Source of the DNA: Acheta domesticus
Lineage: Eukaryota; Arthropoda; Insecta; Orthoptera; Gryllidae
Reading direction: 5' to 3'
Assembly (NCBI GenBank): GCA_031308135.1
Contig: JAHLJT010008756.1
Span: 73,815,821-73,879,820, forward strand
Length of the DNA stretch: 64,000 nucleotides
Shown here piece after piece: positions 9,076 to 57,771 of the stretch. Numbering within the stretch: position 1 is the first letter of the stretch; each line of letters opens with the position of its first letter. The position numbers and the translations under genes were made by a program. The notes under the pieces were generated by a model. That model worked only from the letters and a program-made list of their open reading frames with translations, had not been told where the DNA came from and searched no databases.

Positions 9076-9096
9076 ATTTAATAAATAGAAATATAT

Positions 9097-15775: not shown

Positions 15776-15821
15776 AAAATGTTGGAAAAAATTGGTGTTT
15801 CTGACTATTTTCAAATAGCAT

Positions 15822-29711: not shown

Positions 29712-29981
29712 ACGAAAAATGTGTCCATTCCTTCGCCGACCACGGCACGGTCAACATCGCTCCGCGAACGTTGTCCCGCAGGCTTATCAGCTAAGGTTTC
29801 GCTTTCTGTGATAACGGTTTAGACTACCAGTATACTATTCTCAGTGTGCCTCACTTTATATGCAACAAATTGTTTAAAAGTGTTGATTTAAATAGTGCTT
29901 CGCAAGTGTCAGTGAAACTAAAATCAACAGAGCAAGCAGTTTCGTAGTACGCGACGGCTTCGGCCATCGCAACTACGCAAC

Positions 29982-34257: not shown

Positions 34258-34537
34258 TTAACCGATTCGAACAGCAGTTATTGAATGGTAGGAAATGATA
34301 TGGATTTTACGAGATTGACATCATTAAATCATCAAATAGTAATCTTACGTTATAGCTTCTTTAACAATTATCTTACTTTGGACATTTGTATTTCATGTTT
34401 TCTTTCTTCAAAATTATGTTTATTTTTTCCCATTTTATATTCCAATTTTTTCTATTTTCTTTAAAATCTATTTTTATTAAATTGATAATAATATTCTGTA
34501 ATAGCTAAAATTTTATTAGTAATTTAGATATATTTAT
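34258..34537. other. Short AT-rich spacer
   Basis: Original flank of the jockey insertion up to the start of the next element; no gene seen. Confidence 0.5.
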
Positions 34538-35821
34538 ACTTTCCCGTATACGTACGTATACACGGAGTGATATACGTAGTATAGGGAAAGTTATGTAATG
34601 CTGTGCGAAAAAATGGCGAATTTTCGGCGGAAAAAAATTCATTGCCCGGCCGTGATAACGAAAAAGTGGATAAAACCAGTTGCTGAATTAAGAAAAAATC
34701 CCCTAACACGTGGTGTAGCCAAAAACCCTCTTTTGTGGGTCCTTGATATCGAAAAACCAATTGAAAGGAAAACGTCCGTCTGTCCGTCTGTGAACACTGC
34801 TAGCGCCTAAACTATAGGTACGATTTCTTCCAAAATGGATCGTCGATCCATTTCCATCCCCAGTCGATCTGATTCTGGTTGAAAATTTGAGATTTTGAAA
34901 AAGATTCTTCAAAATTTGGAGGTACTTTATATGAAGCCCCCCCGGACATTTTCAACATTTTCTCAAAAACGGCTCCTAATTTTTTCTTTAAACTTTTGGT
35001 AGGGATAGTGGTAAATGTACTATATCAGATGACATAAAATTCACATTTCTCTATAGGTTGGTTTTTTCAACAATTACAAAAATGTAAATTTTTTCACGTT
35101 TCTCACGTCGACATTATTTACACTAGCGGCGATTTTTTCACATTATTATATTTACGAGTACATGTGCTTTAAATAATGTCAAGTGAAGTTTATCGAAAAC
35201 ACAACCGTTTTCTGTGGAACGTAGCTCAAATTACCGCATTTTCAGAAACGCTCAAACGCCATTTTCTCATAAATGGCTAAAGAAAACTCTTCAAACTTTT
35301 CGATCGGATAGTGCTAATGGCACTCTTTAATATGACCTATAGCTAATTTTGAGTTGTTTTTTTTTTCAAAAATTACATAATTGCAATTTTTTTGAAAGAT
35401 CTCTCACATCTTTAATATGCATATTTCCAGCAATTTGTAAACATTATTATATTTGTGAGTGTATGTGCTTCAAATAACATTAAATAAAGTATTTTGAAAA
35501 CTCAAAAATTTTGTGTGAAAATGAGCTTAAAATTTCGTATTTTTAGTAGCGCTAAAACGCAATTTTCTTTAAAACGGCACATATTTTTAAAAGAAAATTG
35601 CCACTTAGGACCAGGTTTTTGTGTTCTTTAATATTCTAAAATTAATATTTCCGTTCTACCAATAGGAAACCGAAAAGTTAAGAAAATTACAAAAAAATGT
35701 ACTTTTGGCGGTGATAGATGGCAGCTGGCAAGAGAATGTGGCAATTCCAAATAGCTAGCGGAGATCCAAAGAAATAGAAGACTAATAGGGGAAAGTCTGT
35801 GCCATTCTGTAGCACCACTAG
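34538..35821 (+). mobile_element. Helentron-like non-autonomous element, copy A (1284 bp)
   Basis: It starts ACTTTCCCGTATACG and ends CCACTAG. The base before and the base after are both T, consistent with T-T insertion without duplication. A terminal hairpin (34538-34591) pairs ACTTTCCC..TATAC with GTATA..GGGAAAGT. The inverse of the start recurs as ATAGGGGAAAGT (35785-35796), about 25 bases inside the 3' end. A small hairpin (GTGC...GCAC) follows, then CTAG. The interior has tandem units starting CATTTTCTC-like at 34956, 35260 and 35560 (period about 300). There is no reading frame. These traits together match non-autonomous Helentrons (DINE-1/HINE type). Confidence 0.72.
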
Positions 35822-35825
35822 TTAT

Positions 35826-35912
35826 CTTTGTAGCCCTGAAGATGGCCGCTATGCGACCTAAAAAGCTTTTCGCCAAAATAAACAACTATGACAAACCAAT
35901 GTTTCAAATCTA
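35826..35912 (+). repeat. Dispersed repeat segment with CTGAAGATGGCC motif
   Basis: About 85 bp matches 46903-46821 on the other strand: GTAGC-CTGAAGAT, then ATGCGACC, AAAAAGCTT, AAAATAAACA and ACGACAAACC-like blocks. The CTGAWGA, short stem and AAA order resembles the decayed end of Penelope-type elements (compare 43571-43600), but this is only a resemblance. Confidence 0.5.
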
Positions 35913-36369
35913 TTTCCTTGAAAGTTATTTAATATTGTTAGCTTGTCAGCTTCGAAGTTCGCAAAAAATACAATTTCCTGTTTGGATCTGTTTCATGCCA
36001 CAATTCAAATCTCTGTTCTTCCAAATGACTCATTAATATCAGCTCTCTTCATTGTAAAAGTAGTTTAATAGTCTTTCTAGTTAAAAAGAAAGATATGTAT
36101 TGCGGTAGCAAATTTAGAACTTTAATATTATACACATAATAAGTTTTTTTACGCGTAATTCAATTTATGGAATCTCGATTCACAGATCACCGGTGAATTA
36201 AAGTTATGAATTTATTTTATAACATCCATTTTTATTATTTTAGATACTTGTATTACATTATTCATTTATATAATGAATATTATTGTTATCTGTGATTCCG
36301 CTCAAATGAACTGCCGTATGGGTAATTTTTATTCATTCAGGTGTCATAATTACTCACCAACTTCCTTTT
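35913..36369. other. No recognisable gene
   Basis: AT-rich sequence without conserved frames or repeats that I could pair. Confidence 0.5.
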
Positions 36370-36379
36370 TTCCTGTTGG

Positions 36380-36716
36380 GTGACAACATTCCAAGTCTTT
36401 TTGGAATTGACCTTGGGGTAATTCTTGTCGGTCATACGTCAAGTCGTTAGTCATTGCCTTTTATCTCTATCGGCCAAGGTCTTGCTGCCGTTAGTATCTG
36501 AGTTCCCAAACGGTCACCCATTCAGGAACCCACAATAACTCGCAAAGCTTGGCTCAATTCGTATACAGATGCATGTAAATATAGTCAGTGATTGAGCTAT
36601 CCTTACCAAGAACGTAAAAGATAAATATTTTCCCTGGATGTGATTTGAGTCCAAAATCTTACGTTTACCAACCAAGCTGCGACGGCTTTTACGCAAGATG
36701 AAGACCACAGTCAATT
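36380..36716 (-). repeat. Candidate SINE with tRNA-like head and 5S-rRNA-like segment
   Basis: On the minus strand, 36690-36636 reads like a tRNA-derived Pol III promoter: GCAGCTTGGTTGGTAAA as box A and GGACTCAAATC as a diverged box B. Further along, 36552-36490 contains GGTTCCTGAATGGGTGACCG and TTGGGAA, close to the 3' half of 5S rRNA ('TACTTGGATGGGTGACCGCCTGGGAA'). The order and combination suggest a composite SINE or two small RNA-derived repeats side by side. No tail or target duplication was identified. Confidence 0.4.
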
Positions 36717-37240
36717 TGCGATGGAACTATCGTAGCTTTTATATTCATCTAATGTTCCGTAAACTTATCACTTGAAATAATTTCCGTCATTAGAAAACAT
36801 TGAGAAAAGATCAGTGTTGCTAGTACTGTTAAAGAGAAAATGTTTTGTACATCATCAGAATTGTAGAACAGAAGTTAACGCGGTCGCGGGACCTGTCGGA
36901 ATATAAACAAGGGTTTGGCTAAAGGTGTCCCATGAAAATTTAATTAACCGATACGTAGTTATAACAATTTAATTTGAATATTGTAATATATCAACATTCC
37001 GATAAGAACTGCAAATGTGCTAAGACGCTAATGGATAATGACAGTGTAGTTATTTTCCAAGTTTTCTTGAGCCTCGGAATCACTATCTCCACACATTTAT
37101 CAGCATTGGTTCAATTAAGAATAAAAGATAGCAAAGAATGTTGCTGGCAAACTCTTTATCGTTCCCATGTTAAAGAAACTAAATTGTTTCTTGCATAAAA
37201 AGCGGGCTACAACTTTAATTTCATTGTCATGTCGTCGAAA

Positions 37241-38248
37241 TAAGAGATATAGGTGTGTTCACTCCCAGTCTAAAATTGAAGCTCATGTGAGGCTAGTTCT
37301 CACAGTTCTCGCTATATAAGCGCTGCGAACGACTTGGGCATTTTTTGGGACAACATGGTAATCCATTTAATAGCTTTGTCACCAGCTGGTTTCAACGCAG
37401 TTAATAGTCATTTCGCGGTGGAATTTCTAGAGTCGTCTGGAGTGAATAGTTCAAAAAATGGGGAGTTTTTTTATAAAACACTGTGATAGTAACAGTGAAA
37501 AATGTCATTCGCAGGAAACTACTTTATTTCGTGTTCCGAAGTGAGAACATCTACGAAAGAAATGGATTGAAATTGTTCCCCCGAAGAAAAGACAATTAAG
37601 GCAAGGCGATTATGTTTGCGAAGAACATTTCAAAAGTGAAGAGATTATTGTTATGCAAAATTCTGTAAGTAACATTTCAAGAATTTATCATATACTGTTA
37701 ATGAGTTAATTGTAAAATAAGGTAAATAATTTGTAAAATCATACACAATCAATATTGAGAAGTGGACAAAAAGTGAAGTACAATGTACAGTGCAACGAAG
37801 TACAAGCCTATTGATTGATTGATTGATTGGTTACACGCTGGGTTTCTGAGCAAAGCAACATAACTCTCACTTGACTCTCACGTAAATCACGGTTGAATTT
37901 TTTTTCGTAAAAGTAATCTGTTTATTATTATTTTGTCTTTAGAATAACATCACCTCCTGCTTTAAAAAATACAAATCCTCATTCTGTGGTACATTAAAAA
38001 AAAACCTCCGACAAATATTATATAACGTCTTAAAAGACTTTAATACATTTTCATTACAGTTTCTCCGATTATGACAAAAATGCTGCACTGTGGAAACCAT
38101 ACTCTGGTGGAAGCCTCTAAATCGCGAGACGCCATCATGAATTCCCAACTCGATCATGCGCACCGTACGGACAAGCGAGGAACTAGCCTCAAACTGACTT
38201 CAAAAATTTTGTCCAAAAGGCGGCTAGTTGACACACCTATATATCTTA
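37241..38248 (+). mobile_element. P-like (THAP-bearing) transposon remnant with imperfect TIRs
   Basis: TAAGAGATATAGGTGTGT (37241-37258) is inverted at 38231-38248 with one mismatch. The similarity continues inward with gaps for about 70 bases (shared TGAGGCTAGTT and CTCGCT). Inside are a TATATAAG box (37313-37320), a THAP-domain exon ending in a splice donor, and a possible acceptor (TTTTGTCTTTAG near 37941). A THAP domain plus terminal inverted repeats points to the P superfamily. I could not find the 8-bp target duplication expected of P elements, so the exact ends are uncertain. Confidence 0.55.
37458..37664 (+). pseudogene. THAP zinc-finger exon, inactivated
   Basis: Starting ATGGGGAGT at 37458, the frame reads MGSFFIKHCDSNSEKC, TLFRVPK, a stop (37542-37544), then EHLRKKWIEIVPPKKR and DYVCEEHFKSEEI. 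It ends at a GTAAGT donor (37665). THAP domains bind DNA through a C2CH zinc site: here the C-terminal CxxH (CEEHF) and one N-terminal Cys (C9) are present. The first Cys, expected at position 5-6, is Phe. With the in-frame stop this is a dead copy. Exon length (69 codons) and the donor position suit a first exon of a P-type transposase or a THAP gene derived from one. Confidence 0.7.
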
Positions 38249-41200
38249 CACTACGGCGAGGTTTTTGTAAAGATTCGTTCGTTCTGGTTCAGTGAGAGTG
38301 ATGACAGCACGATCTGGTGGTAAGATTAATAGAAACCGAGGAGAAAATTTCTGTCAATGGTGACGTTTGGAGCTCAGTCCAGTCACTCTATGCTGTTTCA
38401 ATAAGCTGATTCGCCATCATTTAGGCTGGGAATGTGGTCTATCGTGTGGATTGAAGTTTTCTACAACAGTTATAAAACTGTGTATGAAACGGGCAGACGC
38501 ATTATTCACTACTTGCGCAAAGAAGCTATTCATGCTCATCTAGCCGTTCGCTTGGCGGTTTGACCTTGCTCGAGTAGCGATGGGCAGTGCCTGCTAGATC
38601 GCCAATAACCGAGTGCGTCGAAAAGCAAAAGACAGTTTCGGTTGCAGTGCCGTATCGGTTAGTTACGACATACTGCAATGCTTTAAGGTTTGTTCAGGTT
38701 CGAGTTCTCAATTGAGTTTCCATCGAACAGAGACTGTGACGGTACAAGCGCACAAATGTACTGCTCTTGCCAGGAGCGCTGTATTTTAAATTTGTTTTCC
38801 ATGCCAGGCAATCGCAAACCTTGGAAAGCTGCGTTCATCTTTGCAATGGACCTAGTCGTAGTCTAGTCGCAGATGTGAAGCCTACGAGTAGCAGAAGCAC
38901 AAATGACGTAAGCTGTGGTAACTCTTAAGAAAAACACACACTTCTGAACACTCAAAATCAAGATCAATTGCATTTGCATGAAAATTGAATTTACGAACTT
39001 AATAAGGAAAGTAGAAATGCTTTCACTAATTTTCAGGTTTGTGTTTTTCTTTGAAAAGTTTTCCAAAATATGTTTTGGTTAAAATTATGATAAGTTTTTT
39101 TTTAATTTGTGGTTAATGTTGCTCAGTGCATACCGTCCTCAAACAGTATTAATTCCCGTCTCAAAGAAATTTTTTTTGTGTGCGGCCTCCTTTCAAGAAG
39201 AGACTCGTTACTTTTTTTTTATGTCCAGGAACTGACACTTTTTGGTGTCGAGTAAAGGTATAAAATTAAGAATCGCTTTACAGTTCTTCAGAACCCGGAG
39301 ATTTTTGCGCTGATATGTATAGTTGAAGACGGTAATTCTAAATTAAAACGGTGTATACAGGCATAATATATGGTTCTATGAATATTTAATATTTAAACAA
39401 ATGTTTACTTGTGAATTTTTAGTGTTATTTATAGTTCAATGAGCGCTGAACGCAGAATCGGCAATCAAAATTTCAGAGGGTTTTTATCGGAGAATGAGCG
39501 TAAAATGATGCACAACCTTCAAACATATTTTTATCTTTTACATAAAATACCAACGAAAAGCAGCTGTCGTAGTAAGTTTATTACGGATTCGTACTTGTAG
39601 ATACTACAAATAAACAAATTCATCTGACCTTTCGATGGCTTCTTAGGGAACACTGAATTATCTCCTCTTGTAGCTGGTACGAATACATATCCTAATTAGT
39701 TATGCTGCCAATAATCAATGCACTTGATTCAACTTGACTAGAACAAAGTTAACAATCGGCGAAAATCCACTAGTTAATTGTGAAATAAATCGATCAAATA
39801 ATATTAAATTTATGTCACTGTAGCTTCGTAGGTCCCAATGATAGGTTCCATAATCACGAAACAATAAGTACGAGGCACTAGTTACTTTCCATCTTCATAA
39901 ACGTGTATTGATTTTTCTATTAAAGAACCACTTCACTTCACAACATGTCTTGAAAATTACTCTTATGATCTCATCCCTGCAAGTCTCCTTTCTTTTGCTT
40001 GGAAATAGCTTCGTATCACAAAAGGCGACTACCTGAAACAAAAATGTTGACTTGCATCATGTTAAAATCTAGATGAAAAAAGATTAAATACTGTTGTCTT
40101 TTGTAAGTACTCCGAGTATAACCAATGTTACAATAATCCTAGGTCGCATACTTTATTTATCCGTGCTGTTCAATGTATTACAAAGTACACAAGATACGTG
40201 ATAATTGACAACTCAATATTGTATCTTAATTTGCAAAGCTTCGAATTCCCTGAATTCGTTTCATTTACTAGAAGAACCCGGCAGGTGTTGTTCTGCTGAC
40301 TCTCCCCTCCCCCATTTTGTCCTCCTTTTCTCTCTCTCTCCCTCTCTCTCTCTCTTTCTCGACTCTCTTCCTTCCCTCCCTCTCTCCTCCTCTTTTTCCT
40401 CTTCCCCCTTCTTTCTTCGTTTATTAATTTGTTTAAAATGTATTTAAGTTATGAATTTGAAAAAAGTTTTTATCATAAAAAATGCCAGAGTCGCAACGCT
40501 AAGAGTTTTTAATATTTCTTACTTTAATCTTCAAAATTTTGAATGTGATTAAAAAATAATGAAAACGTTCAACGAATTATTCACTATTGTATTTAATTAT
40601 TCACATTCATTATTGTAAAAAAATATTGTAATTTGTAGAATATACAGATGGTACTGAAATACGACGAAGCCTCTGCAAAGTTGTTTCCTATTTACGGAAG
40701 GCTGCATTACATGAACATATTGGCCACTCCTTAAGTTTTCAAAATAATTTCGATTCCTAAATGAAAAGGCAAGGCAAAGTCAGTTTTCTTGATTCTATAA
40801 ACATAATTGGATAATCTGCGAAGTTTTTCTTCGGAGAATATAACGACATGACTCCATTGGGAATGAACATTCCTATATATACTCAGCGACTCGCGTAGAA
40901 AGCCACTGATTTTCATAAATTCTTTTGATAGCTTGGTACCTTTTAATTTCGTATTCAACTTCGATAAATAACAGTTCCATTTTTACAATCTAATCGCAAG
41001 GATCAACAATCTTTTAATTTTTCTCTCTGAAAAACAACGCTTTATATTATTTTGTAATTTGACCTCCGAAATCTCTTTCACAGTGGCACCTGCGTCTCGA
41101 CATTAATGAACTCGCGCTTTCCCCCACACAGACGTGTCTCGCACGTGAGCAGTGGCCATTGCTCGCAGGTGTGGCAGGAGTTCCCATGTGTGAGCCAAAC

Positions 41201-42618
41201 CGCAACTGGGTCGCGGTTTGACCCATCGGGTCGCGATGTGTAGCGGAGGGACAAGGTGCCATCGACAGCGCCAGCCGTCGCTCGAACCTCACCGCACACC
41301 GCTCAAATACGGACCGCCTTGGCGTTGCGATTGTAGGTCAGAGGAACGTGTTACAAGCCTATAATAAACTAGACCAGTCGAAAAGGGTAATCATTTAACA
41401 ACACTGATTATTTGTTCAGAATAGTTGTGTTCAAGCATGATAAAGTGAAACTAGTGCGCCGCCGCGAAATAGAAAGGCTGGAAAGAGCTATTCTCTCGTT
41501 TTGGTGAGAGGACCAAAAGGTAACAGTTTTTCAGCGCGCTCTAGCATCTAGACAGTTTTTCATGAATTTAAAGTAAGTGTATGTATTTTGTAGAAACTTG
41601 TATCTTCTTTAATTTTTTAAATAATAATAGTTCGATAAAACGCATAGTTTTGAAGATGAAAGCGAGAAACGAAAAAAAAATCCCTCAATAATATAAAACC
41701 TTTGTGAAAAAATTTCCGGAATTTTTTCATGTATCGCGCCGTTTTAAGCGGACTAGACTAAACGGCATTTCCACCAACAAGATATAATATAGAATATCTT
41801 ATCAAAATAATTTTTTGAGTTACGTACTTTTTTATTATTATTAACTTAAATGTACTGACCTTAAGGGCCCTTACGGGTCTGCAGTTTTTGTTCACGTATT
41901 GTTCGGAAGTAACCCTCGGAAGTTTCCCACGTTGCATTACTGAGTATTTAGGTTTGTGGTAAATCCTTTCATTTATCGTTTAGAGCTATTTTATTGCTAA
42001 AGAATTGCGATTTTTAAAAGATGACATGTGAGGGGTATCCGGGGAAGAGGTCGTGACGTAAGGTCTTGTCGTAAGTTGAAAATGGGGGGGGGGGTCGAAG
42101 GGGAGTAAAATGAAAATAGAAAAATAAATTATATATTTGGTGAATAATACGCTCATTTAAAGTATTTATGGGAAAGCCTGTATGTAGTTGGTAGCTGCGG
42201 CCATGCCATGGTGAACCTAATGCAGGGCGACGTGAAGTTTTGATAATGATGTTCGTGATGCTTCTCCGTGGTCAAACCAGACTCTTCCATAAAAGTATTT
42301 TGAACGGAGTTAAAACAAGGGAGCGATGCTGTGTAAGTGGTCGAAGAATGGCAACTCCTTATATTACTTTGCTAACCAAATAAACTATATGGGATCCATG
42401 TCAGTTTAGTATCTAGTTGAACTCCGAAGTACTAGATAATTGCTTTGAAGAAAAGGTGTGGTTATTGAACGAAAGTTGAAGGTCTGGAGAACATGGCCGT
42501 AAGAGAAAATTGTAATAACTTTCGTTGATATTGACATTCAAGTGTCACATTTTAGTCCGATTCGATATCGCAAAAGACATTTTATTTTCTGCTACGTAAA
42601 ATATCGTAACGGTTGTGT
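38249..42618. other. Long stretch without recognisable genes
   Basis: Short open frames only. A pyrimidine tract (CT/CCT-rich) covers about 40311-40423. A GC-rich patch at 41085-41330 contains repeated GGTCGCG-like words. A G10-11 run lies near 42085. I found no conserved protein or terminal repeats. Confidence 0.5.
40311..40423. repeat. Pyrimidine-rich (CT)n low-complexity tract
   Basis: More than 90% C/T, dominated by TCTC runs. It is unrelated to the flanking sequence. Confidence 0.9.
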
Positions 42619-43096
42619 GAATGGAATAAGAATATGATAGATATGAATGGAATAAGAATATGATAAGAATATGGTAGATAGAATATTTAGCGTATCAAAT
42701 AATGAAAATCACAAATATAATTTAAATAAAATTGAGAAAATTTTAATTGCTAATGACTATTCGGTAAAGTTTATTAGGAAATTTATTCAAAAAAGATTAA
42801 TGTTCCATAAAAATTTAAGCGTTTAGAATAAGTCTGATATTGAAGAAATAAATGGTAATAACACGTCAAATTTAGTCATTCCACATGTTCGTGGGATCAG
42901 TAATAAAATTCAGAATTTTGTTAGGAAGAGTTTCACGGGGAAATACAATCTTAGAAATAAAATCTTCAATAAAATTAATGTAATTAAGAATATTAAAGAT
43001 GTTATACCATATAAAGAAAGAGAAAATACTGTATATCAGATAACTTGTCAAACTTGCGACAAAAAATACTTTGGTCAGACGTAAAGAAAATTACAA

Positions 43097-43468
43097 ATGA
43101 GAATTAAAGAACATGAGAGGAATATTAGTGAGCCATTTACCAGACAGAACTCTGTAACGACTCATAGAATAGAAACTGGTCATAAGTTAGATTTTGAAAA
43201 CGTTAAAATTCTTGATAATGAAACCAGGAGATTCCCAAGAATCATTCCTGAAACTCTTCATATGAAATTAAATGAAACCATGAATTCGATGGTAGAATGT
43301 AACAACTTCACCAATGCATATGATAACATATTACGCAAAATCAAGTATTTATTATTTTCTTCGATTATCGACCCCTGCCTATGGTTACCTGACCCCCTGC
43401 CTCTTAATTCTATTCGTTTGTTTTACTTACGATTCACAAACTTAAAACTTATATCCAATATAAGGTAA
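43097..43468 (+). pseudogene. C-terminal part of Penelope GIY-YIG protein
   Basis: A 123-codon open stretch starting inside the domain. In Penelope elements this endonuclease nicks the target so the reverse transcriptase can prime. The upstream half of the domain (from about 43030, with the YQI and YFGQT blocks and a CxxC) is in the same frame but separated by one TAA. The stretch from LLFSSIIDPCLW on is probably read-through into the 3' UTR. Confidence 0.65.
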
Positions 43469-43570
43469 GCTTCCATTATTTAATATTGTTTTCTGCTTAT
43501 ATGATGTTTATAAAGATTCATTTCATCTATTCATATTTATGTAATAAATTAGATTTTAGCCAAAATGTAC

Positions 43571-43600
43571 CTGATGATGGAGACAAATGATCTCTGAAAC
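43571..43600 (+). ncRNA. Hammerhead ribozyme-like core in Penelope 3' region
   Basis: CTGATGA (43571-43577), then a GGAGA/TCTCT stem with a short loop, then GAAAC (43596-43600). This is the conserved spacing of a hammerhead core. After it, GTTG can pair with CAAC (43601-43604 and about 43616-43619), which could be a short stem III. I do not see a clean stem I, so activity is doubtful. Penelope elements are known to carry hammerhead motifs. Confidence 0.5.
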
Positions 43601-43715
43601 GTTGTAAAACTCCAACTTTGTTTCATATACAAACTTCAACCTTGTATGAAATATAGTTTATTATCACCTGATTGTCTATAATTAATGGAACATTTTTTTA
43701 TGGAATGGAATAAGA

Positions 43716-44112
43716 CCACGTCGTCAGCATTAAGAGCTTCAATAGGAAAAAAGCAAGTAGGGAATTCTTTATTTATTAGGGTGGCCCTTAGCTATAGGAC
43801 AAATATCTGAAAGTTGAAAATTTCCCACCCCTAGCCCGGTTTCAGTCTACAAGAAAATGATCTCTGCTAACTTTCAAACCAACAGGATCATTTCTAGACG
43901 ACCCCAAAACGCCTTGAAGTTGAAACATAGTATACGAAACAAATAATTCCAATCAAAAGCAGTGAACTATTCTCTCCCTAGCTCAATTTCTCTTTTCTCA
44001 ATTTATGTGGCTCATTCAGACAATCAGCAATTGTTAAAAAATATTCTAAAACAAATTATCTCTAGTTTATTCAGCAATTTCTGAAATAGCATGAAAATCA
44101 AAGATTTTTTTT
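43716..44112. other. No recognisable gene
   Basis: Short spacer with no conserved frame. Confidence 0.5.
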
Positions 44113-44290
44113 ACTTTCTCGCCTCAGGAAGTTCTTCTTAAGAGAGAGTTACATAATCATGTGCCGGAAAACGGCGAATTTTCTACAAAAAAACTCTTTA
44201 TTGCCGGACTCTGGTAACGAAAAAGTGGATAAATCCTGTTGCTAGAAAAAAATCTTTAAACACGTAATGTATCAAGAATCCATGTTTTGA
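44113..44290 (+). mobile_element. Helentron-like element, copy D, 5' end only
   Basis: It starts T|ACTTTCTC and follows the family through GTTACATAATC (GTTATGTAATG in A/B), GGCGAATTTTC, a TTGCCGG block and AACGAAAAAGTGGATAAA. Similarity fades by about 44290. It is more diverged than copies A to C and has lost the terminal palindrome's pairing, so it is an old fragment. Confidence 0.65.
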
Positions 44291-44349
44291 TAATTCACAT
44301 CTCTAAGAGAAACCCACGTTTATTTACAACATAGAAGAAAAATCAAAAC

Positions 44350-44640
44350 ACCATTTGGACGAACGAATTTTGAACATTCTGTTTTCTGAGAGGATGTAGT
44401 AGCAGTTGGGTATTACTTACGATCTTCAGCAACAATTTATGAAACATTGTTAGTTGTGAGGATGTTGTTATAATCCTGAATAAGTTTGACACCTCTTTCT
44501 GCAACGTCATTCACAACTATCTTCTCAAGTTTTTAAATTCCACTTTGTAACCAGGATCATCCTTCCACATTGATGGGTCTTTATTGAGAAAATGGGCATT
44601 GATAGAAAATTTCGTGAAGAAAGATTTTGTTTCAGGAATT
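44350..44640 (-). pseudogene. Fragment of a repeated arthropod protein family of unknown function
   Basis: On the minus strand, fragments read FFTKFSINAHFLNKDPSMW, then LEKIVVNDVAERGVKLIQDY and NNILTTN, then a degraded 'VAEDRKKYP'-like tail. I recognise this as part of a family seen in many copies in arthropod and cnidarian genomes, typically 'VVNDTAERGVALI..YN..LTKNEEQKQFLLQVV'. Its function is not known to me; its high copy number suggests it travels with a mobile element. Stops and shifts make this copy dead. Confidence 0.55.
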
Positions 44641-46989: not shown

Positions 46990-46994
46990 ATATG

Positions 46995-47571
46995 TTGACA
47001 CACCTGCACGCTTACCTGCAGGCTGGTTGTCACTGGATTGCCCTCTACACAGAGAAGCCTGGAAGTCTGAAATTGTTTATGTCCCAAAGGAATTACACAC
47101 AACGTGGCACAACAATAATTTTGTTTATTAAGAATGGAATTTGAGATTAAAAATATAAAAATTCTCTTGCTTAATTTCATGCATTAAGTTCACTGTACCA
47201 AATTGTCTGGCGTTGTGCAACGATGGCCCCGCAGTTCGTAGCCCCTTGACTTCCGCGCCGAAAATCCGTCTGCTTCTTTCTTGCTGCTCACTTCTTGCAC
47301 ACTTGTTCCACAATTTGTCCTCCCTATTCGCGTCGATGTCCAACTTTAATAATTCAGGTTACATACGCGCCGCTACCACCAGGATGCCAGTCAACCACCA
47401 ACTCTCCCTCGTCCAGGGCCCCCTTCTCGCGCGTCAACAACCTTCGTTACCTAGTAACCGCGACCGTCCAGATTGAAGCGCGGCGTTTGTTTTGTAATAT
47501 TTTTGTATATTACAGCTCCGTCCGTCCAGATTAACGCGCGGCGTTTGTTCTGTAATATTTTGTATATTACA
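46995..47571 (-). repeat. Candidate solo LTR (577 bp)
   Basis: Flanked by ATATG on both sides (46990-46994 and 47572-47576). On the minus strand it starts TGTAATATAC, has a GC-rich U3-like part containing a tandem duplication, and has an AATAAA near 47127. It ends GTGTGTCAA rather than the canonical CA, and ATATG is a weak duplication in AT-rich DNA, so this is tentative. Confidence 0.4.
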
Positions 47572-47575
47572 ATAT
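47464..47575. repeat. 58-bp tandem duplication
   Basis: CCGTCCAGATT, GCGCGGCGTTTGTT, GTAATATTT and GTATATTACA blocks occur twice with a 58-base period (47464 and 47522). Confidence 0.85.
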
Positions 47576-47576
47576 G

Positions 47577-48343
47577 TTAGTATATAAATAGAAATAGAAT
47601 TTAAGCCCAATGGAAGAATATGAATATAAAATGCGAAAATAGAAATTAATAATTTTGAAGAAAGAATACATGAAATGACAAAAGTATTCTTTCTCCAAAA
47701 TTATTAAACTGGTACTGCCAGACGATTCTTTTCTAGGAATCCATGGTGTCTCGAATCGGCTAACGGCGCCGACGCCATTTATTTACATAGGTTTGTTTTT
47801 GAATACCAAATCCCTTTATATGGTAATTAATATATTTTATTTCATTGTTAAAATTAATATTTCTTTCCTTTTTGATGCTCGGTATAGTCTCTAAATATAA
47901 TTATAGAAACAGTTATGTAGCAGAAAAGATTTTACTTGGCACGTAAACTTACGTAGTTTAATGTCATCTGGCAATCTGCTGAAAAATAATATGCATGTAT
48001 TGTATGTAAATTTTTTGTTGTGATCTGTTGATACTGACACCTGATGAATATGATTACTACGTCGTCAATGATTACTAAGTCATTTTTACAAAACCAACTG
48101 ATGGTAATGGTAAAATTCCAAGATTAACAAAGATAAGCTTACAAGAATTACGTAGGTGGGATTTGTTTATTATTCGTACAATATTTTTTGTAATCTAAAG
48201 GTCTGTGAGTTATACGAAGTATTTTCCCAGAATATAATGCCACATCTCAGGTAGGAATGAACATTCGCGAAATATACATAATTAATAGTACAAAGACTAA
48301 ATTTGAAAGAACTATGAACGTGTAGCGAATGAACTTAATTGAA
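47577..48343. other. No recognisable gene
   Basis: AT-rich; nothing to annotate. Confidence 0.5.
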
Positions 48344-49510
48344 TCAGTCATTTGAGAACACATCTACATTTGTTTAAAATTGAGTTATACGTCCATTACA
48401 TGCAATCTCATCCATTACATGTAAAACATCACATCTCCAATGGAAAGATACATAACAATGAGATGTTAAAATTTGCAGTATTTTGAGGAACACCACATCT
48501 CCGGGAGATGTGTTTCTCAAATGACTTTGTAGTGAGTGGCAGCACTGGCGTCGAGCAGCAATAAGCAGTTGCATCTGTGGTTTTCTACAACGTATTCTGT
48601 GCAAAATGAGTTTTAATGAGAGTGATATGAAATCGCGCCATGTAAAGCGTAAAAAGGGATTGAATCAATGAGAATATAAGTGTGAACAATATGCAGAACT
48701 AACGCTTCCTTCTGTGAGGAACAGTAGTTCCTCACAAATTTCAAGTAGAACTTGGGGAAAGTGAAAAGGTGAAGGATTTTAATGATGGTGACCACAGTAC
48801 TATAAAAATAACGTATCGACTGAGACTCGAGCAAGAAGCATTTCAAGGGAAAACAAACAAAAATTCAACATTTCGAGTTTCATGGAACTCTCATATTCTA
48901 ACAAACATGTGAGTGAAGTTAAAGAAAAACATTCTATTGATTGACTAACTGAACACAGTTTTGACTTGAAAAAATTAGTTTGCGGCACTCCAGAACTTCT
49001 TAAAGCTTGTGCTTACCCACATCATTGTGTACCAATGGACATAAAAAAGGCAGTGATCGCAGAAAACTAAAATACTATATTCCTGAAGATAGAGTTAATG
49101 AATTTTGCTCAAATATTTGACTGGCCAACTGTCGACAAGGATGTGAAAAATTTATGAAAATAATACCAAAATATTGTCAGTAATGTTGTAACATTAATGG
49201 CATATCAAATATTTCTTGCAATAAATCTGTTTTCCCTTCTTATATTATTTCTTACCATTATTTTGTGCATATTAACTCCACGTTACGTCAGTCATTTAAG
49301 AAGCAACACATCTCCAATTAACTTTTTAGTTGATTTTGACACGTCTGTGTACATACATTTGTTTCTCTTTAAACAAGTGGAAGAACCCAAAATGCATATA
49401 TTTAAAATACAAAAATTATGAATATGACTTATATTAAAATCTTAGGACATTTTTTCTCAATTTACCGAAAGTTTACTTTTTTGGAGATGAGGTGTTTCCA
49501 AAATGTCTGA
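48344..49510. repeat. Cluster of terminal-repeat-like motifs, possible unknown DNA transposon
   Basis: Variants of GGAGATGTGTTTCTCAAATGA occur as an end motif at 48344-48365 (inverted), 48424-48440 (inverted, partial), 48481-48502 (inverted), 48504-48525 (direct, back to back with the previous one), 49288-49315 (inverted) and 49483-49510 (direct). The pair 48504 and 49315 would bound an 812-bp unit with inverted ends. A short decayed frame inside it (from 48607, MSFNESDMKSRHVKRKKG) has no match I know. Confidence 0.5.
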
Positions 49511-49599
49511 TTCAATTTTGTGTTCAACTCATATAAATGAACGTTCCATTTGAGGTTTCACTGAGTTGAGAGACCTAAAATTCTTTTTACCTTAATATC

Positions 49600-50029
49600 A
49601 GTCAATGGTACCTTTCATTTTCAATGAAGTAGAGCATTGTTTATTTGAAATGGAAAACAGCATTGAAACAGTTTCCTTTTCATTTACTATTAATTTTTTT
49701 ATTACGGAACCAATTTGGAAAACTGATACTGTACTATACGGTTTCTTTATTGCGAAGAATATTCGTATCATCCGCAAAGAGAACTGTTTTTTCCGTTTCA
49801 AATTCTCGAGGACATGTCTTTTGCGAATAGTAGGAAGATAATTGGGCCTAAAACCGAACCGTGCGGGACCCCTTGTGCGATTGGCATTGAACTGGAAAGG
49901 TGTGTAAGATACGAAGATAACAAATTTAGAACGAAACCGCGAATTCTATATGAAGGTAATTTTGAAAATAAAATGTTATGATAAATGACGTCAGAAGCTT
50001 TGGAAAGATCTACAATTATCCCCGTAGGT
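49600..50029 (-). pseudogene. LINE reverse-transcriptase fragment (CR1/L2-like), cut by a MITE
   Basis: The minus strand reads GIIVDLSKASDVIYHN (50025-49980; usual 'DLSKAFDVIDHN'), SKLPSYRIRGFVLN, a degraded 'GVPQGS' as GVPHG, then, after a shift, the catalytic LFADDTNIL (49782-49756). The spacing is that of reverse-transcriptase motifs 3 to 5. The fragment stops exactly at the start of the hAT-like MITE at 50030. Confidence 0.75.
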
Positions 50030-50314
50030 CAGGGGTTTTCGAACTTGTTTCGTCTACGGCTTCCTTGACCTAAACGAAACTTCCCGCGGCTCCCCTAGCG
50101 ACAATAAGTTTCAAACATAAGGGACAATAAGTTTCAAACATTAATTAGTAAAATAAATTATGTGCATTACAAATAACATTTAGTACGATAGTACAAAATG
50201 TTTTTGTGGACATAAATGACATAAGGATTAAAGTAAATCAAATCAAAAGATCATTTTTAATAAATCACTGCGACACCCATACCATACGGCCGCGACGCAG
50301 TATGAAAACCCTTG
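50030..50314. mobile_element. hAT-like MITE (285 bp)
   Basis: The ends are CAGGGGTTTTCGAACT and, inverted, CAAGGGTTTTCATACT (13 of 16 bases), close to the common hAT terminus CAGNGNTTC. Flanking octamers CCGTAGGT and CCATTGGA agree at 5 of 8 positions, so any 8-bp target duplication has decayed. The interior has a 23-base direct repeat (GACAATAAGTTTCAAACAT twice, 50100-50140) and no coding frame. Confidence 0.6.
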
Positions 50315-50639
50315 CCATTGGAGCTCAATTTTGATCCGTGGTCGAATCGGCACCTTTAAGAACAGAAAATATGGCTGTTTACGTAGATTTTGTAAACCTA
50401 TGTTGGCAATCTAAAAACGCTCCGTGTTTACTGAGAAAGGTTCACATTCGTACGTAAAAATAAGTATCTCTAATACTTTCGAAAAAAAAAACTGACAGAA
50501 ATTGGCCTATAATTCTTAATTTCATTTTTGTCCCTTAAGGTTCCCTTTAGCCCTGCTCCTTAAGGTCCAACCGTATTTATTATTGGAATCGTCTACTGCT
50601 TCGTAAACATCTTGTGATAAGAGTTGTTTTCCAATAGCT

Positions 50640-50930
50640 TCTTTTGCTCGCGCCACGTGTGCGATAAACAGGACGCCTCCCACCCGCTCCTTTGAGCGCA
50701 AGAAGCGCCGCGGCGCGCCGGCCTCTGCCGAGAGGCAGGCCGTAACTCGTCGCGCCCGCAAACAGAACACCTCCGCGCGCGGGTGACCGCAGGCAGGCGG
50801 GCGGGCGCGCGCAAAAAAGCAGAGCGGCGGAGGAAGAGCAGGAGCAGGAGGCGGAGGAAGCGTTGGCTGCTCGCCGAACGAGGAATGGGAAGGGGGACTA
50901 GAAGCTTGGAGGGCCTTCCACAGTGGAGCA
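50640..50930. other. CpG-rich island
   Basis: A sharp rise in G+C and CpG, with GCGCGC runs, in otherwise AT-rich DNA. Frames across it are arginine/alanine-rich on both strands, as expected of composition alone. It may mark a host promoter or first exon, but no gene was recognised. Confidence 0.5.
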
Positions 50931-52574
50931 GAATGAGTGACTCGAGTATCTTACGTTACAATCTCAAGAAAAAATGTGTAGTGACTTTCTTATGATACCC
51001 TCAGGTGTCTTGGGGACCGTGAAAAGATATTGAGGTGTTCTTTTTACTGAAATGAAACCTAAGATATATAATATTATCCTCAAGCTATTGTATTATTTAT
51101 TCCTAAAGCTATTTGAGAGAAATCGACACAACTTCGATGTTTTATACGGAAACCTACATATTTCTTTAGCGCATAATAACAATCGAATAGAAACTAGTTC
51201 ATACATATGCATTCTACATAAGTATATCAGAGAAACATAGAATTTTTATGACGCACGCCGATTATCAGTATTCCGCCAATACTGCAAGGGAACACGCTGC
51301 TAGGTTCATCTGCTACGTCTTTCCTTCAACTTTACTTCCGCCTCTCCTCCTACACATACATGAATTACACCACCACACATTTCAGGAGACCACTCGGGAG
51401 TTTCGAGCCTGTCACGGCTGAGGAGGTACCCCGTTTCCCGGAAGTGGAAATTTCCCGCAAGATGACATGTAAGTCGTCGCCGAATATCACGTTCTACAGG
51501 GGCAGGAAACCGTCACCTCCCGGTATATAACAAGCACGTCACTCTCGGGACTGAAGATGCAAGAAGTTTTCGTGCTTCAAATCAATACCTACTGAATCAT
51601 TCCTGATTTTTGAACAAGAATTTAATATTTATTAAGCTATCATTGAAATAGAATTTTCTTAATGATGAACCGAATGAAATATAATGCACATATCAATAAA
51701 TGTAATTAGTATGAAGGTTGTTACGGAATAATCCCAGCGCCTGTCCAACCTACAATTGTCACCGAACACTGTTGAGTACACGTCTTGTGGACAAGACTAC
51801 TCTTATACTGTACATCTTTTCGTTTCCCACAATATTTCGTAAGCTCATCCAATTCATTGTTATTGCAAACAAAGCAGTGTCGTGCTGCACTTCAATCACG
51901 TCTAGTTGGAGAAACGATTGTTGAAATCTACAACTGTTAATTCGGCAACAATGTAGTAAAAAGAATGAATGCCGCGAAGAGTCCTAGTAAGTAAATATCA
52001 GCCAAGATATCCGGTTAGGTTTTGCGAGCGTTCACAACAGTTCAACAGTTCAGAACGTGACAAACACAAACCTGTGACATGAACAAAATAGCGAATTTTA
52101 GCTCGTTTGTAACATGTTGGCCTCGTGCACATAAACTCATTTGATATTAGGTTTTTTATAGCGCTAGAGCGCGCCAGCGGCACACATTACGCACAATAAC
52201 GAATTAAAAGACGTTACACACAAAAAGTCACAGATCATTGCAGATTCGTATTAAATCTGGCCACGGTGCTCACTTGTGATATTTCTTTAGCTCACTTCGT
52301 AATACATGAATGTTGAGAATTCGTCACTGCGTGTGATGACAAACACGTCTTTGCGATTTAGGAGCGGCAGTTTAATACGTTATCATTGACAAGTCTCATA
52401 AGGAGCCACGTATGCCATCCAAGAAGTATCAATTGATCCTACAATTTTTGAATCCATATGTTTGGAGTGTTGCATCTATGTTCATATTTATTAACGGAAA
52501 AACCTACGTGCTAATCCTGCTGTTTACTAGACACGGCATCCATTATGATCTCTGCTGTACATAGTCTGATCTAC
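50931..52574. other. No recognisable gene; isolated TATA box
   Basis: A TATATAA at 51524-51530 follows a GC-richer stretch (51400-51520) and could be a promoter or part of an old LTR. No coding region follows. Confidence 0.4.
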
Positions 52575-52960
52575 GTTATGAAGTGAAGCGAAAGACCGTA
52601 CCTTACGCGTGGGGTTTGTCGTGTATGTTTTAACGTCAGTCACGTGACTAGAAGTGTGTTAAGTCACGAGGAGGTTTCAAATATGCTATACATCCGTATT
52701 CAGAAGCCATTTGGTTCAGGTCGTGGCAGCTTTAACAGCGGGGCTGTCCCCACATTATCTGGTTGAGTAAAACCCGTGTCGAATCGTTGTGAAGTGAAGC
52801 GAAAGACCGTGCCGGTACGCAAGGTTCGTCGTGACAGTTCTAACGTCAATCACGTGATTCGAATAATGTCAAGACGTTTCAAATGCACTAAAAATTCTGT
52901 CCAATTTTGTTCCTTTAACAGCGGGGCTGTGATCATATTTCCGGGCGGGTAAAACAAACG
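52575..52960. repeat. Diverged tandem duplication (about 180-210 bp unit)
   Basis: GAAGTGAAGCGAAAGACCGT occurs at 52580 and 52791; ACGTCA-TCACGTGA and TTTAACAGCGGGGCTGT occur in the same order in both units. Spacing differs (211 and 183 bases), so one unit has an indel. No coding frame. Confidence 0.8.
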
Positions 52961-53029
52961 TATCGTTTTGATCGGCTCGCCCATCGGGGCCGTCTAACCG
53001 TAATTCCATTTTCGTACATTTCCTCCGTT

Positions 53030-53320
53030 TTCAGCGCTTCCGAGTCCCTCTGTGCGGCGTCTGCAGCGGTGGCAGTGACGGCGGCGGCGCCCCGAAATAC
53101 CCGCGCGCGGCTAACGAACGCCAGAGCGGCGGCGCGCGCCGTAAATCATGCCAAAGAGCGGCGCGGGCTGCTCGTCGCCCGCCGTGCGCCACCGCGCCCA
53201 TTAGTCGCAGCTAAACGGCGCGCCGCGGCACGGGACCGGAGGCCGAAGGACGGCGGCCAGTGGCCGGACGGTGATGACGGGCCAGGGAAGCAAGAAAGCG
53301 ACCGTGGGCGTGCGCACAGT
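53030..53320. other. CpG-rich island
   Basis: Very GC-rich, containing GCGCCCATTAG, a word nearly repeated in the island at 60880-61150 (GGGCCCATTAG). The open frame 53069-53461 is alanine/arginine-rich and is probably compositional. Confidence 0.5.
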
Positions 53321-53457
53321 TTATTTATTTATTTACGTCAAAAACAGTTAAAAACTGTGTGTGACGAGCTATGGGGAGAAGTGAATTTTGTGCACGATTT
53401 CATAATTTCTGTGATCTCTATCCTCAACTATATTCTAAGTGTCCTACACTATATTCT

Positions 53458-53987
53458 ATAAGTGTCGTGTTAACGCACAGGCCCCAAGGGCCAGGGACCA
53501 GGGCCCGCGATAGTGTTTCAAAAAATATTTATTACTACTGTTTTCAAAAAAATAAAATAAAAACGTTTAAAATGTGATGTATGATTAAACTAGATGCAAA
53601 AAATAGGCCTAAAATTGATGTCACGCATCATTGAATAATTTTTATTTATAATGTGGACTGTTGCTGGTAGATTTTTCAATTTTATATCGTACAATTCAAT
53701 AAAAAATGAAAACTAATTTGTGGTCTTCTTCAATATAATTATAAATCTGTTATTCTTACTTATACAAACATGTTTAATTATTTTTGTTTGTATAATGTAA
53801 AATTGAAACACTAAGAAATACTTTCAAAATATTTTTTAAAAAATATAAAATACAATGTGAATTGATAGGATTTTCTGTATATTTCAGCATCAAAATTGGG
53901 GGGAAGATCGGTGAAAGTAATAATAGGGGGCCCCCAAATTAACCTAAGCCCAAGGGCCCCCAACACTGTTAAAACGGCCTTGCCTGC
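53458..53987. mobile_element. Candidate TIR element (about 0.5 kb)
   Basis: The left end (TAAGTGTCGTGTTAAC, then GGCCCCAAGGGCCAGG) and the inverted right end (CAAGGCCGTTTTAAC, then GGGGGCCCTTGGGC) share a spaced pattern over about 35 bases. The middle is AT-rich and non-coding. No target duplication was found. A hAT-type MITE is possible. Confidence 0.4.
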
Positions 53988-54658
53988 GCGTAGGGGAACT
54001 GAGGGGGGCGTGGTGTTTCGGATAATTTCGAAAGTTGCCCCGTAGTCTCTTCGAAAGGGGCTACATAATAAAATATTTTAGTTTCTTAACACGTTGAGTG
54101 CCAAGCGCTTGGTAACCGGTTGGGTCCCAGAACCCGAGGTATTTAGAGATATTTATTTTGGTCATCAGTAATTATTTTGGCATAAATCCTTACTTTTTTA
54201 GACAGTTTTTTTGTTAATTGAAAACAAATGAAAAATAAGTAGAAGTGCCATTTTATTTTATTGACATACTTGAATACATTACAAAATACAGTATGCAAAA
54301 TCTGAGCAACAATAACACATATTTTTCAGAATTAGAATTTTCACATATTTCATCCGAAGCTAATTTCCGAGTGGTTTTCCAAAAGGCCATAATTTTGTAG
54401 CATGCTCAACGTTCTAACCTCAAAACATATCCCCAATCAACGTTTACGATTGAGTTGGGACTTCAGCTTTAATATCTTTTTAAAATGCTATATAAGATAA
54501 GAATAAGGTCGTAAGCATAGGATCGTGGGCGCATGGGATCATAGGCGAAGCAATAAAAGCCTGTAGCGACGGACAATTTTTTAGAAAAATGATATTTAAA
54601 GACTACATTATTATGCTATGTCCGTTTTCAGTGAAACGCACTGATGTTGCATAAGGCA

Positions 54659-54692
<34 letters not shown>

Positions 54693-56171
54693 TTATTATG
54701 CGAATCACTTCATTAGAATTGAGTTGTTTCACATTAAAAATATTGGGATATTTCGGGCACACATACTCGCCTTCAGTCCCTCTGCTCTAGATGCTAAGGT
54801 AAGTGATATTCAGGGTCGAAGTGACGGCGATGGTAGATGCGGTGGCGGTGGCAATGATGAGAAACGAGATGTCTGGATGCTTGGCAGGGTTCGGGGTGCG
54901 GGAGACGTACGAAAGCGTCTTCGCAGAAGTGTGAGCTGTGAGAAGTTGGCGCGAGTCTGATAGAGGATTAGGCGAGAAGATGACATGTGGTTTCTCCGGA
55001 ACGCGATATTTTGGGTCGACGGGTAGGTGCGAATCTGAGATTTTGAAAAATGAGTGTGGAATGTTCTTTCGGAAAGCATCGTTGGTTTTCACTTGAGGAA
55101 TAGTCACCCGCGCCATCTAAAAGTTTAACTGTCGGCTGTGGCTGGTAGACCTACCGTTGATTTTTTTTCATATGATCCTTTTTAGGGAATTAAGTCATTG
55201 ATATTTTTTCAAATGTACTTTTCGTTCGTAATATGACGCAATTTACCACAAGTCTTTGTTATAATCTGATATTCTACAGATGCTTTGGCAATAGGTGAAA
55301 AAATTCCGGACTATTTACTCGAAAACTGAACATCCACCATAAATTTCGGAAACATTTGTATTATTTTGACTTACAGTTCAATACGTTACTATGTTATAAA
55401 CATACATCGAAGTTTTTTAACATCAAAATGTAATAGTTTGTCATTATATGCAAAATTCAAGCGTGTCGATTATTTTTTTTCATCTATTGAAGCAAAAATT
55501 GAGTATCGGTTGTTTGAATGAATACATGCATGTTATTATTTTTTAGCTTTTTTTTTTAAATTTATCAATATCGTCAAAAACATCGACAAAATTAAAATGT
55601 AAGTATTCACCTGACACACACACGTTGTCAATTCCAGGTTTCGATTTTAACAAGGATTCAGAAAGAAAATTAATTGCATTTTGTATTGCCATTAATAATA
55701 GCTAGTTTTTCTAGAATTCATTTGATATTGTTTTTAATGTCTTTATTTTGTTTTATCTTCCAAAGCTTTTAAATCCCTCTAATGTATTTTTGTTTGAGAA
55801 CTAATATGTTAATTTTTCACGACGTCTCCTCGAACTTTGTGGAAAAACGTTCGCTGAAGTGAAGTGTTTGTAACGCTTCCTTTCAGTGCTCTCTCTTGTC
55901 ATGAAATATTGTAAAATCCAAAGTCTTCCCATGAAGGGAAGAAAATGTACAGCTGTTGAGTCACTTGCGTACTCTGGAACTCATTGACAGAATACGCACG
56001 GTAATTTGAAGGAATATTGAAGTAAATAGTTTGTTTTAAAAATTTAAAGAAAATAACATGTCAAGCAATCTGGTTTTGCTCAACACAACCATTACGATTG
56101 ACTAAATTAAGTGTTCTATCACAATTCTCGTGATGGTCCATGTTTGCAAGAAACGCGGTAGTCCTATTTTT
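53988..56171. other. No recognisable gene; ATT microsatellite
   Basis: A TTA/ATT microsatellite lies at 54661-54695. Open frames at 54724-54960 (plus) and 54787-55116 (minus) overlap each other, and neither has a motif I know. Confidence 0.45.
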
Positions 56172-57771
56172 ACTTTCCCGTATACGTACGTATACACGGA
56201 GTGATATACGTAGTATAGGGAAAGTTATGTAATGCTGCGCGAAAAAATGGCCAATTTTCGGCGGAAAAAAAATTAATTGCCGGGCCGTGAAAACGAATAA
56301 GTGGATAAAACCAGTTGCTAAATTAAGAAAAAAAAATCCTCTATCTCGTGGTGTGGTCAAAATCCATGATTTGTTGCTTCTTTATACTTAAAAATAGATT
56401 AACGGCATTCCGTCCGTCTGTCCGTCTGTGGTCAACGCTAGCGCCTAAACCGTTCAGTCGATTTTCTTCAAAATTGATATTCCCCAATCGATCTGATTCT
56501 AGTCGAAGCTTTGTGATTTTGAAAAAGATTCTTTAAAATTTGGGGGTACTTTATATGAAGCCCCACGGGGATTTTCAACATTTTCTCAAAAACGGCTCCA
56601 AATGTTTTCTTTAAATTTCTTGTATGAATAGAGGAAAATACACTTTTTAACATGGCATAGGTCCGATTTTCACGTACAGCTCTGAATTTTCGAAAATTGT
56701 GAAAGTTTGAATTTTTTTCGGCGTCTTTCTCCAACTACAAAATTGAAGATAGAGATTTTTTCTTCAAATAAAATTTATTCTGCATATTGAGTTCTTTAAT
56801 AAAGGTCATGTAAATGTTTTTCACAATTTTGGTAGTTTTCGTGCAATATTGCGTGCAATATGTGCAATTTTAAAAAATTACAAAAACAACATTTTCTAAA
56901 AACGGCTCCGAATTTTTTCTTTAAACTTTTGGTAGGGATAGTGGTAAATGTACTCTATCAATGACATAAAAGCCATTATGGTCTATCGGTTGGTTTTTTC
57001 AAAAATTACCAAAATGTAAATTTTTTTACTTGTCTCTCACGTCGTTAATATTTACATTATCGGCGATTTTTTTACATTATTATATTTACGAGTATATATG
57101 CTTTAAATAATGTCAAGTAAAGTTTCTCGAAAACACTACCGTTTTCTGTGAAAAGTAGCTCAAATTTCGGCATTTTCAGAAATGCTCAAACGTCATTTTC
57201 TCGTATATGGCTGTAATTTTTTTCTTGAAACTTTTGTAACGGATAGTGCTAATTACACTCATTAGTATAGCGTGAAGTTTATTTTGAGTTTTCTTTTTGT
57301 TTTGTTTTTTTTCAAAAATTATATAAATGTAAATTTTTTGAAAGATCTCTCACATCTTTAATATGCACATTATCCGCAATTTGTAAAGATGATTATATTT
57401 GTGAGTGTAAGTGCTTCAAATAATTTCAAATAAAGTATTTTGAAAACTCAAAAATTTTCTGTGAAAATGAGCATCAAATTTCGCATTTTTAGTAGTGCTA
57501 AAACGCCATTTTCTCTTAAACTGCACATAATTTTTAAAAGAAAATTGCCATTTACGGCTAGGTTTTTGTGTTCTTTAATATTCTAAAATTAATGTTTCTG
57601 TTCTACCAATAGGAAACCGAAAAATTAAGAAAATGACAAAAAATGTACTTTTGGCGATGATAGATGGTAGCTGGCAAGAAAGAGTATGTGGCAATTCCGA
57701 ATAGCTAGCGAAGACCCAGGAAAATAGAAAACTAATACGGGAAAGTCTGTGCCATTCTGTAGCACTACTAG
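56172..57771 (+). mobile_element. Helentron-like non-autonomous element, copy B (1600 bp)
   Basis: Same ends as copy A: T|ACTTTCCCGTATACG and ACTACTAG|T. The 3' subterminal ATACGGGAAAGT (57735-57746) is an exact inverse of the first 12 bases, and GTGC/GCAC (57750-57764) forms the 3' hairpin. Internal units begin at 56579, 56890, 57194 and 57507 (spacing 304-313), one more than in copy A. The 316-base length difference equals one unit. No coding frame. Confidence 0.75.

Follow-up and report, generated by a model that had tools for sequence, protein, structure and literature searches.

A probable Helentron-associated, DINE-1-like transposon family with a variable number of central units in the genome of the cricket Acheta domesticus

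A 64,000-nucleotide stretch of the Acheta domesticus genome (assembly GCA_031308135.1, contig JAHLJT010008756.1, positions 73,815,821 to 73,879,820 of the forward strand; hereafter the window) contains two complete copies, A and B, of a repeated element, together with partial copies (Table 1). Counted without the 5′ T run, A spans 34538-35821 (1284 bp) and B spans 56172-57771 (1600 bp), as first placed. The two can be aligned over their whole length, with 86.5% identity between positions 416-1284 of A and 716-1600 of B. A preliminary description, made from the letters alone, had joined A, B and two fragments, C and D, in one Helentron-like family. A and B are indeed copies of one family. By BLAST within the window the fragments are real but partial; C matches at 15775-14969 on the minus strand, and D is of a diverged sister type (ACTTTCTCGCC) with a match at 44141-44289 and a start at 44113. 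The family is noncoding, with no stop-to-stop frame of 130 or more amino acids inside A or B. Its plan comprises subterminal inverted repeats (subTIRs), a second inverted repeat nested at the 5′ end, a GTCY microsatellite, variable central repeats and a T-run target. We read A and B, with a probability of roughly 85%, as copies of one non-autonomous family of DINE-1/HINE-type rolling-circle transposons (HINE, Helentron-associated interspersed element).

Table 1. Copies of the family in the window and their parts.
Feature	Coordinates	Strand	Remarks
Copy A	34533..35821	+	Two-unit form lacking unit 1; includes 5′ TTTAT (decayed TTTTT)
A, 5′ terminal hairpin, 54 nt	34538..34591	+	ACTTTCCC is the 5′ subTIR, GGGAAAGT the nested inverted repeat
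A, GTCY microsatellite (CGTCCGTCTGTCCGTCTGTG)	34773..34792	+	Published trait of DINE-1 block A
A, two central units	34956..35560	+	Equivalents of B units 2 and 3
A, 3′ subTIR (GGGGAAAGT), 4-bp stem GTGC/GCAC, CTAG terminus	35788..35821	+	
Copy B	56167..57771	+	Three-unit form; includes 5′ TTTTT run
B, 5′ terminal hairpin, 54 nt	56172..56225	+	
B, GTCY microsatellite	56410..56430	+	
B, unit 1	56579..56889	+	311 bp; absent from A
B, unit 2	56890..57193	+	304 bp
B, unit 3	57194..57506	+	313 bp
B, 3′ subTIR, 4-bp stem, CTAG terminus	57735..57771	+	subTIR ATACGGGAAAGT, a 12-bp perfect inverse of ACTTTCCCGTAT
Fragment C	14969..15779	-	5′ module only, split by a separate insert; match ends before the unit array
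Fragment D	44109..44290	+	Diverged sister type (ACTTTCTCGCC...) with its own 5′ hairpin; 5′ module only
3′-end remnant, subTIR to terminus	18803..18857	-	BLAST within the window; absent from the preliminary description

The same ends recur at other loci (given L numbers below) in the 2.33-Gb assembly that contains the window. They consist of a run of five T, ACTTTCCC with its 54-nt hairpin, the 3′ subterminal repeat and CTAG-TT, and they are shared by 24 two-ended copies, A and B included. The family thereby passes one check set with the preliminary description, that genome copies should not have other termini lying beyond these ends. CTAG is present in most of the 3′ tails listed. The palindromic hairpin described at the 5′ start is far beyond chance (-15.8 kcal/mol; none of 200 shuffles was as stable, for A or for B). 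The inverse of the start reported inside the 3′ end is also there, stopping 25 nt before the end. The two subTIRs of B (56172-56183 and 57735-57746) match at 12 of 12 positions and those of A at 11 of 12. T flanks the element as described: TT follows the 3′ end in 24/24 copies and exactly five T precede ACTTT in 17/24. Among 46 distinct 3′ tails, T occupies the first place after the end in 45 and the second place in 45. The base preceding the five-T run in the 17 copies is A in ten, C in six and G in one.

Two variants of the 3′ end exist in the family. L073 is 97% identical to B over positions 1-1537 (numbered from 56167). Beyond these it carries different DNA, with a second 3′ end, CTAATACGGGAAAGTAAGTGCTGTTGTAGCACCACTAG. 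Its positions 1671-2985 are an alternative 3′ part of the family and include a further piece of about 0.57 kb. This second tail is common to L073, L095, L096 and L100 at 98-99% identity; the 0.57-kb piece is absent from the other three, and the first ~70 bp of the tail are unmatched in L100. L074, L097, L098 and L099 carry the tail of B. These eight loci were picked by hand from the matches to B, and no proportion of the two variants follows from them. Both variants keep the subTIR followed by GTGC...GCAC..CTAG. Because this arrangement is conserved in two 3′ tails, we suggest that it is what the transposition machinery reads.

Paralogous empty sites were searched with the joined flanks of nine of the 24 two-ended copies. 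They were found for two, L029 (24 rows) and L020 (16 rows), which together took up all 40 scored rows; the other seven joined flanks gave no empty site among these 40. We read ten of the 24 empty sites for L029 and ten of the 16 for L020. The empty L029 site is CCC-T6-C in 7/10, and the filled site is CCC-T6-element-T2-C; the remaining three have T8 and lack the C. The empty L020 site is ATA-T5-C in nine and has T4 in one, and the filled site is ATA-T4-element-T3-C. Thus, apart from the element itself, a filled site has two more T than an empty one, and the junction is otherwise unchanged. The net gain of two T holds in 16/20 empty sites, which represent two insertions; the other four differ in the length of the T run. 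Neither of two simple origins for the flanking T fits, whether the host supplies every T or the element brings all five: the 5′ run is five in 17/24 copies, yet the empty sites show a gain of two. Assuming a gain of two T, the targets of the 17 five-T copies were T5 (7), T6 (9) or T7 (1) behind a non-T base, and two to four T were kept on the 3′ side.

The two added T may be a TT carried by the element, or they may stem from duplication of a 2-bp TT target. The T-T insertion proposed earlier is therefore borne out as to its T-run target, with paralogous empty sites to show it, but stays ambiguous as to the origin of the TT. A similar WTTTT pattern, with the same choice left open, is described for the DINE-1 of Drosophila yakuba (Yang and Barbash, 2008, PMC2374699; here and below, published families are compared on excerpts of the papers cited). 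A miniature inverted-repeat transposable element moving by cut and paste and duplicating TT would account for the net gain in both sets of empty sites, and the D. yakuba element was formerly interpreted in that way (PMC2374699). We consider this very unlikely here: the inverse repeat on the 3′ side stops 25 nt short of the end, so that the element has no terminal inverted repeats, and two different 3′ tails share one subTIR-stem-CTAG end, like a terminator of replication.

The closest known system is DINE-1/INE-1 of Drosophila (PMC2374699). The likeness extends to the subTIRs, a second inverted repeat by the 5′ subTIR and the GTCY of block A. It also includes central repeats of 50-500 bp whose number varies within a species, the lack of significant open reading frames (ORFs), a stem (weak in A and B) after the 3′ subTIR, the T-run target and the ambiguity of two T. 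Our family differs in its sequence and subTIR, in its CTAG end, in a 3′ stem of 4-5 bp rather than 7-11 bp, and in central units that are old and strongly diverged among themselves. Mite, mosquito and oyster HINEs (PMC4067079, PMC7492417) are likewise noncoding, with subTIRs, a 3′ stem (in our family a weak one), short satellite-like arrays and T-rich targets that are otherwise unmodified. The subTIRs of the mite HINE are palindromes that lack a nested inverted repeat, whereas the nested repeat of our family is DINE-1-like. As with the oyster HINE families, no partner is linked to it here. A CTAG terminus is found in the Hel-2/MITE01 Helitrons of Lepidoptera (PMC4344730), of which Hel-2 also has a 5′ inverted repeat and subterminal repeats, and proto-Helentron-Pi (PMC4067079) joins a 5′ TT to a 3′ CTAG. 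These elements have A/T flanks or insert between A and T, in contrast to the T run and gain of two T found here (PMC4344730, PMC4067079).

Several observations weigh against the assignment to the Helentron branch. Its CTAG 3′ terminus is a feature of Helitrons. The 3′ hairpin of the preliminary description exists as a 4-bp stem, but it is no better than chance, with shuffles folding as well in 77/200 cases for A and 49/200 for B. A script found four stem pairs in 20 of 33 distinct tails and three in eight, with five left unscored; by eye, the second 3′ variant has a 5-bp stem. Published HINE and DINE-1-like families have 3′ stem-loops of 5-11 bp. Among the 20 Rep domains read of 150 listed, we found no autonomous partner that shares these ends and encodes a Rep/helicase/endonuclease with the Helentron-type motif RG-S-PH. 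The 150 are the best scored of 674 candidates in a search with Pfam PF14214, and all were over the cut-off. A Rep motif was readable in 13 of the 20 stretches, and all 13 have RG-L, which the rule of PMC4067079 assigns to Helitrons. Two full Rep + PIF1 ORFs showed no endonuclease domain (E 0.001), and B had no match above 26 bits to their loci. The earlier Helentron/DINE-1-like label is backed by the structure and the T-run insertion, while CTAG and the weak 3′ hairpin lie nearer to Helitrons.

Canonical Helitron Rep domains are numerous in this genome, several of them in open frames of 1,439-1,477 amino acids (L071, L072, 150 listed places), and its Helitrons look recently active too. A and B could then be a non-autonomous canonical Helitron with a 5′ end that is T-rich by chance, moved by these abundant Rep/helicases. 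The CTAG terminus, the many Helitron-type Rep domains just mentioned and the Lepidopteran Hel-2, which joins a 5′ inverted repeat, subterminal repeats and CTAG (PMC4344730), would agree with this. The start of the element, though, is a T run followed by ACTTTCCC, with no 5′-TC, and its target is a T run that gains two T rather than an A^T site that gains no base. The subTIRs and GTCY block match DINE-1, and the Helitron-like 3′ end of L072 (hairpin CCGCTCAT/ATGAGCGG, then CTAG) is unrelated to our family. A canonical Helitron is therefore improbable in our judgement. The label of Helentron-like HINE is supported by structure rather than by proof from a partner, and membership of the Helentron branch would rest on structure and target.

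The family is a new, well-documented one of an already known element type. First-look candidates in the genome number 18,432 for query A and 4,837 for query B. The best 40 were scored for each query; these figures indicate an abundant family but give no copy number. It looks recently active, with young copies, B among them, 97% alike. A word search of the literature, with sequences, supplements, repeat libraries and subscription journals outside its scope, found no element with these ends. B had no match in a phage collection, and two exact-pattern scans of viral contigs had none.

The central array consists of two units in A and three in B, as first counted. Unit 1 is missing from A, and the equivalents of units 2 and 3 are 89% and 85% identical between the copies. 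The length difference of 316 bp had been equated with exactly one unit. Unit 1 accounts for 311 bp of it, and the rest is the net of small unrelated indels. Different units are 52-72% alike, compared with 85-89% for equivalent units of A and B, and unit 1 is only 52-57% like the others and recognizable mainly over its first ~45 nt. Tandem Repeats Finder (score of at least 40) listed no array in A or B. The array is thus old, given how little its different units resemble each other, and we rejected a freshly expanding array on the same comparison. Variable numbers of central repeats within a species are already published for DINE-1 (PMC2374699).

Across the family a copy has two, three or four units. 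The usual form has three and is about 1.6 kb long, and A represents a minority form that lacks unit 1. Two-unit copies, and the fourth, unit-2-like unit of L040, indicate that unit number changes in both directions and by whole units. This much of the proposed expansion and contraction of the array stands; the array itself is old, and the argument from 316 bp was wrong. Junctions were inspected in five two-unit copies, A and L002-L005. In each the 5′ module enters unit 2 through the box CTCAAAAACGGCTCC.AATTTTTTCTTTAAA, which is common to units 1 and 2. L037 is two-unit by its BLAST layout alone, with the junction not inspected and ~60 nt unexplained at the place of unit 1. Collapse of the repeat by the assembler in A could in principle produce the one-unit difference, as assemblers can collapse tandem repeats and a single assembly was seen. 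This is the least credible of the alternatives: the loss recurs at five loci with inspected junctions, and the units differ by 28-48%, far beyond what assemblers usually collapse.

Repeated loss of unit 1 is likely. A tree of 31 rows, built from units 2-3 and the 3′ module, requires four changes for its five two-unit copies, at least three of them forced by well-supported branches. With L037 added, and L016 and L026 left out as near-identical to L017, a tree of 42 rows requires six changes for six two-unit rows, again with at least three forced. A single clade of two-unit copies appears in 0% of the bootstrap trees in either set; one loss followed by regains or exchange is possible. There is also evidence on the other side. 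Shuffled labels gave as few changes in 87/500 cases for the 31-row tree and in 500/500 for the 42-row tree, where the two-unit label is unclustered, and the trees are star-like. The three forced changes might amount to a single loss with two regains, the pattern could equally have arisen by exchange between copies, and the search with A as query favours copies that lack unit 1.

The family is often its own neighbour. Of 54 distinct 3′ ends, 13 run into sequence of the same family or of the D-type sister. The 54 are what remained of 58 after removal of duplicates and of the rows for L001, L017 and L026, and the D-type reference came from L015, which is itself among the 13. In the window the family holds 54/463 T/A runs of 5-7 bases and 3,491/63,000 called bases. 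Self-insertion would then be about twice the expectation from T-run supply; this is suggestive only, as the supply comes from one window, a non-random sample. L025 is a head-to-tail pair with the junction CTAG-TT-ACTTTCCC, as expected if the second copy landed in the T5 of the first. L002 and L074 are inserted in T runs of other family copies, with both sides present.

In five further nested copies (L011, L014, L016, L031, L033) the inserted copy lacks its 5′ end and the host copy lacks the stretch that comes next, and the gap surrounds the centre of the inverted repeat expected from the insertion. L016, L017 and L026 are near-identical with common flanks and represent one duplicated locus. 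By eye, family sequence resumes past the gap in L031 and L014 and less clearly in L033, and was not found beyond it in L011 and L016. We rejected a composite of a 5′ piece and an inverted 3′ part spreading as a unit, since the five are 84-92% like one another, about as they are to B (85-93%). They are best read, we infer, as insertions into T runs of another copy in which the region around the resulting inverted repeat was later deleted.

These observations can be arranged in a mechanism. A Rep/helicase made elsewhere would nick the T run beside the 5′ hairpin. A single strand would be peeled off as far as the 3′ subTIR, stem and CTAG, and the freed strand would be joined into the T run of a target. 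Loss or gain of a unit would most likely be by in-register exchange or template switching between the ~40-bp boxes that open units 1 and 2. Insertion would usually leave TTTTT at the element's own 5′ end and so re-create the target, which would explain the head-to-tail pair and fits the 13/54 3′ ends in family copies. More tentatively, the family may seed itself. It would re-create a non-T-TTTTT target at its 5′ end, carry T runs inside, and land in or next to old copies to form pairs and nests, with units and 3′ ends swapped in register by template switching during rolling-circle replication. We regard this extended proposal as possible rather than likely.

The window holds other mobile elements. 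Fragment C is split by an insert of ~439 bp (15125-15563, minus strand) with 9-bp ends TGTTATGTC/GACATAACA and, by eye, CTTGA flanking both sides. It resembles a small DNA transposon in its own right that has duplicated 5 bp of its target. A Copia-type long terminal repeat retrotransposon lies at 19830-23428, where an open frame of 1085 amino acids encodes a polyprotein with zinc knuckle, integrase and reverse transcriptase, followed by a frame of 130 amino acids that has no Pfam match. A long interspersed nuclear element (LINE) at 29922-34039 has a PRE_C2HC frame and an endonuclease/reverse transcriptase frame of 897 amino acids, and ends ~500 bp before copy A. The named relatives of its protein (31346-34036) are from aphid, psyllid and beetle at 36-44% identity, in keeping with an insect host, and closer, nameless matches reach 52%. 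A second, degraded LINE at 8617-12536 retains an endonuclease domain, and part of it weakly matches reverse transcriptase. At 16078-16880 about five units of 158 bp are repeated in tandem with 71-79% matches; a period of 319 bp is seen there as well.

What is most interesting beyond the known element type is the T5 target that insertions would re-create, with frequent self-insertion, together with the proposed swapping of units and 3′ ends in register. The family is a clean case of the DINE-1 plan outside Drosophila, in which empty sites occur naturally, changes of unit number can be counted and some copies are young. It can be used to study how internal repeats come and go in rolling-circle elements, to annotate the host genome, and to find which Rep/helicase moves DINE-1-like elements.

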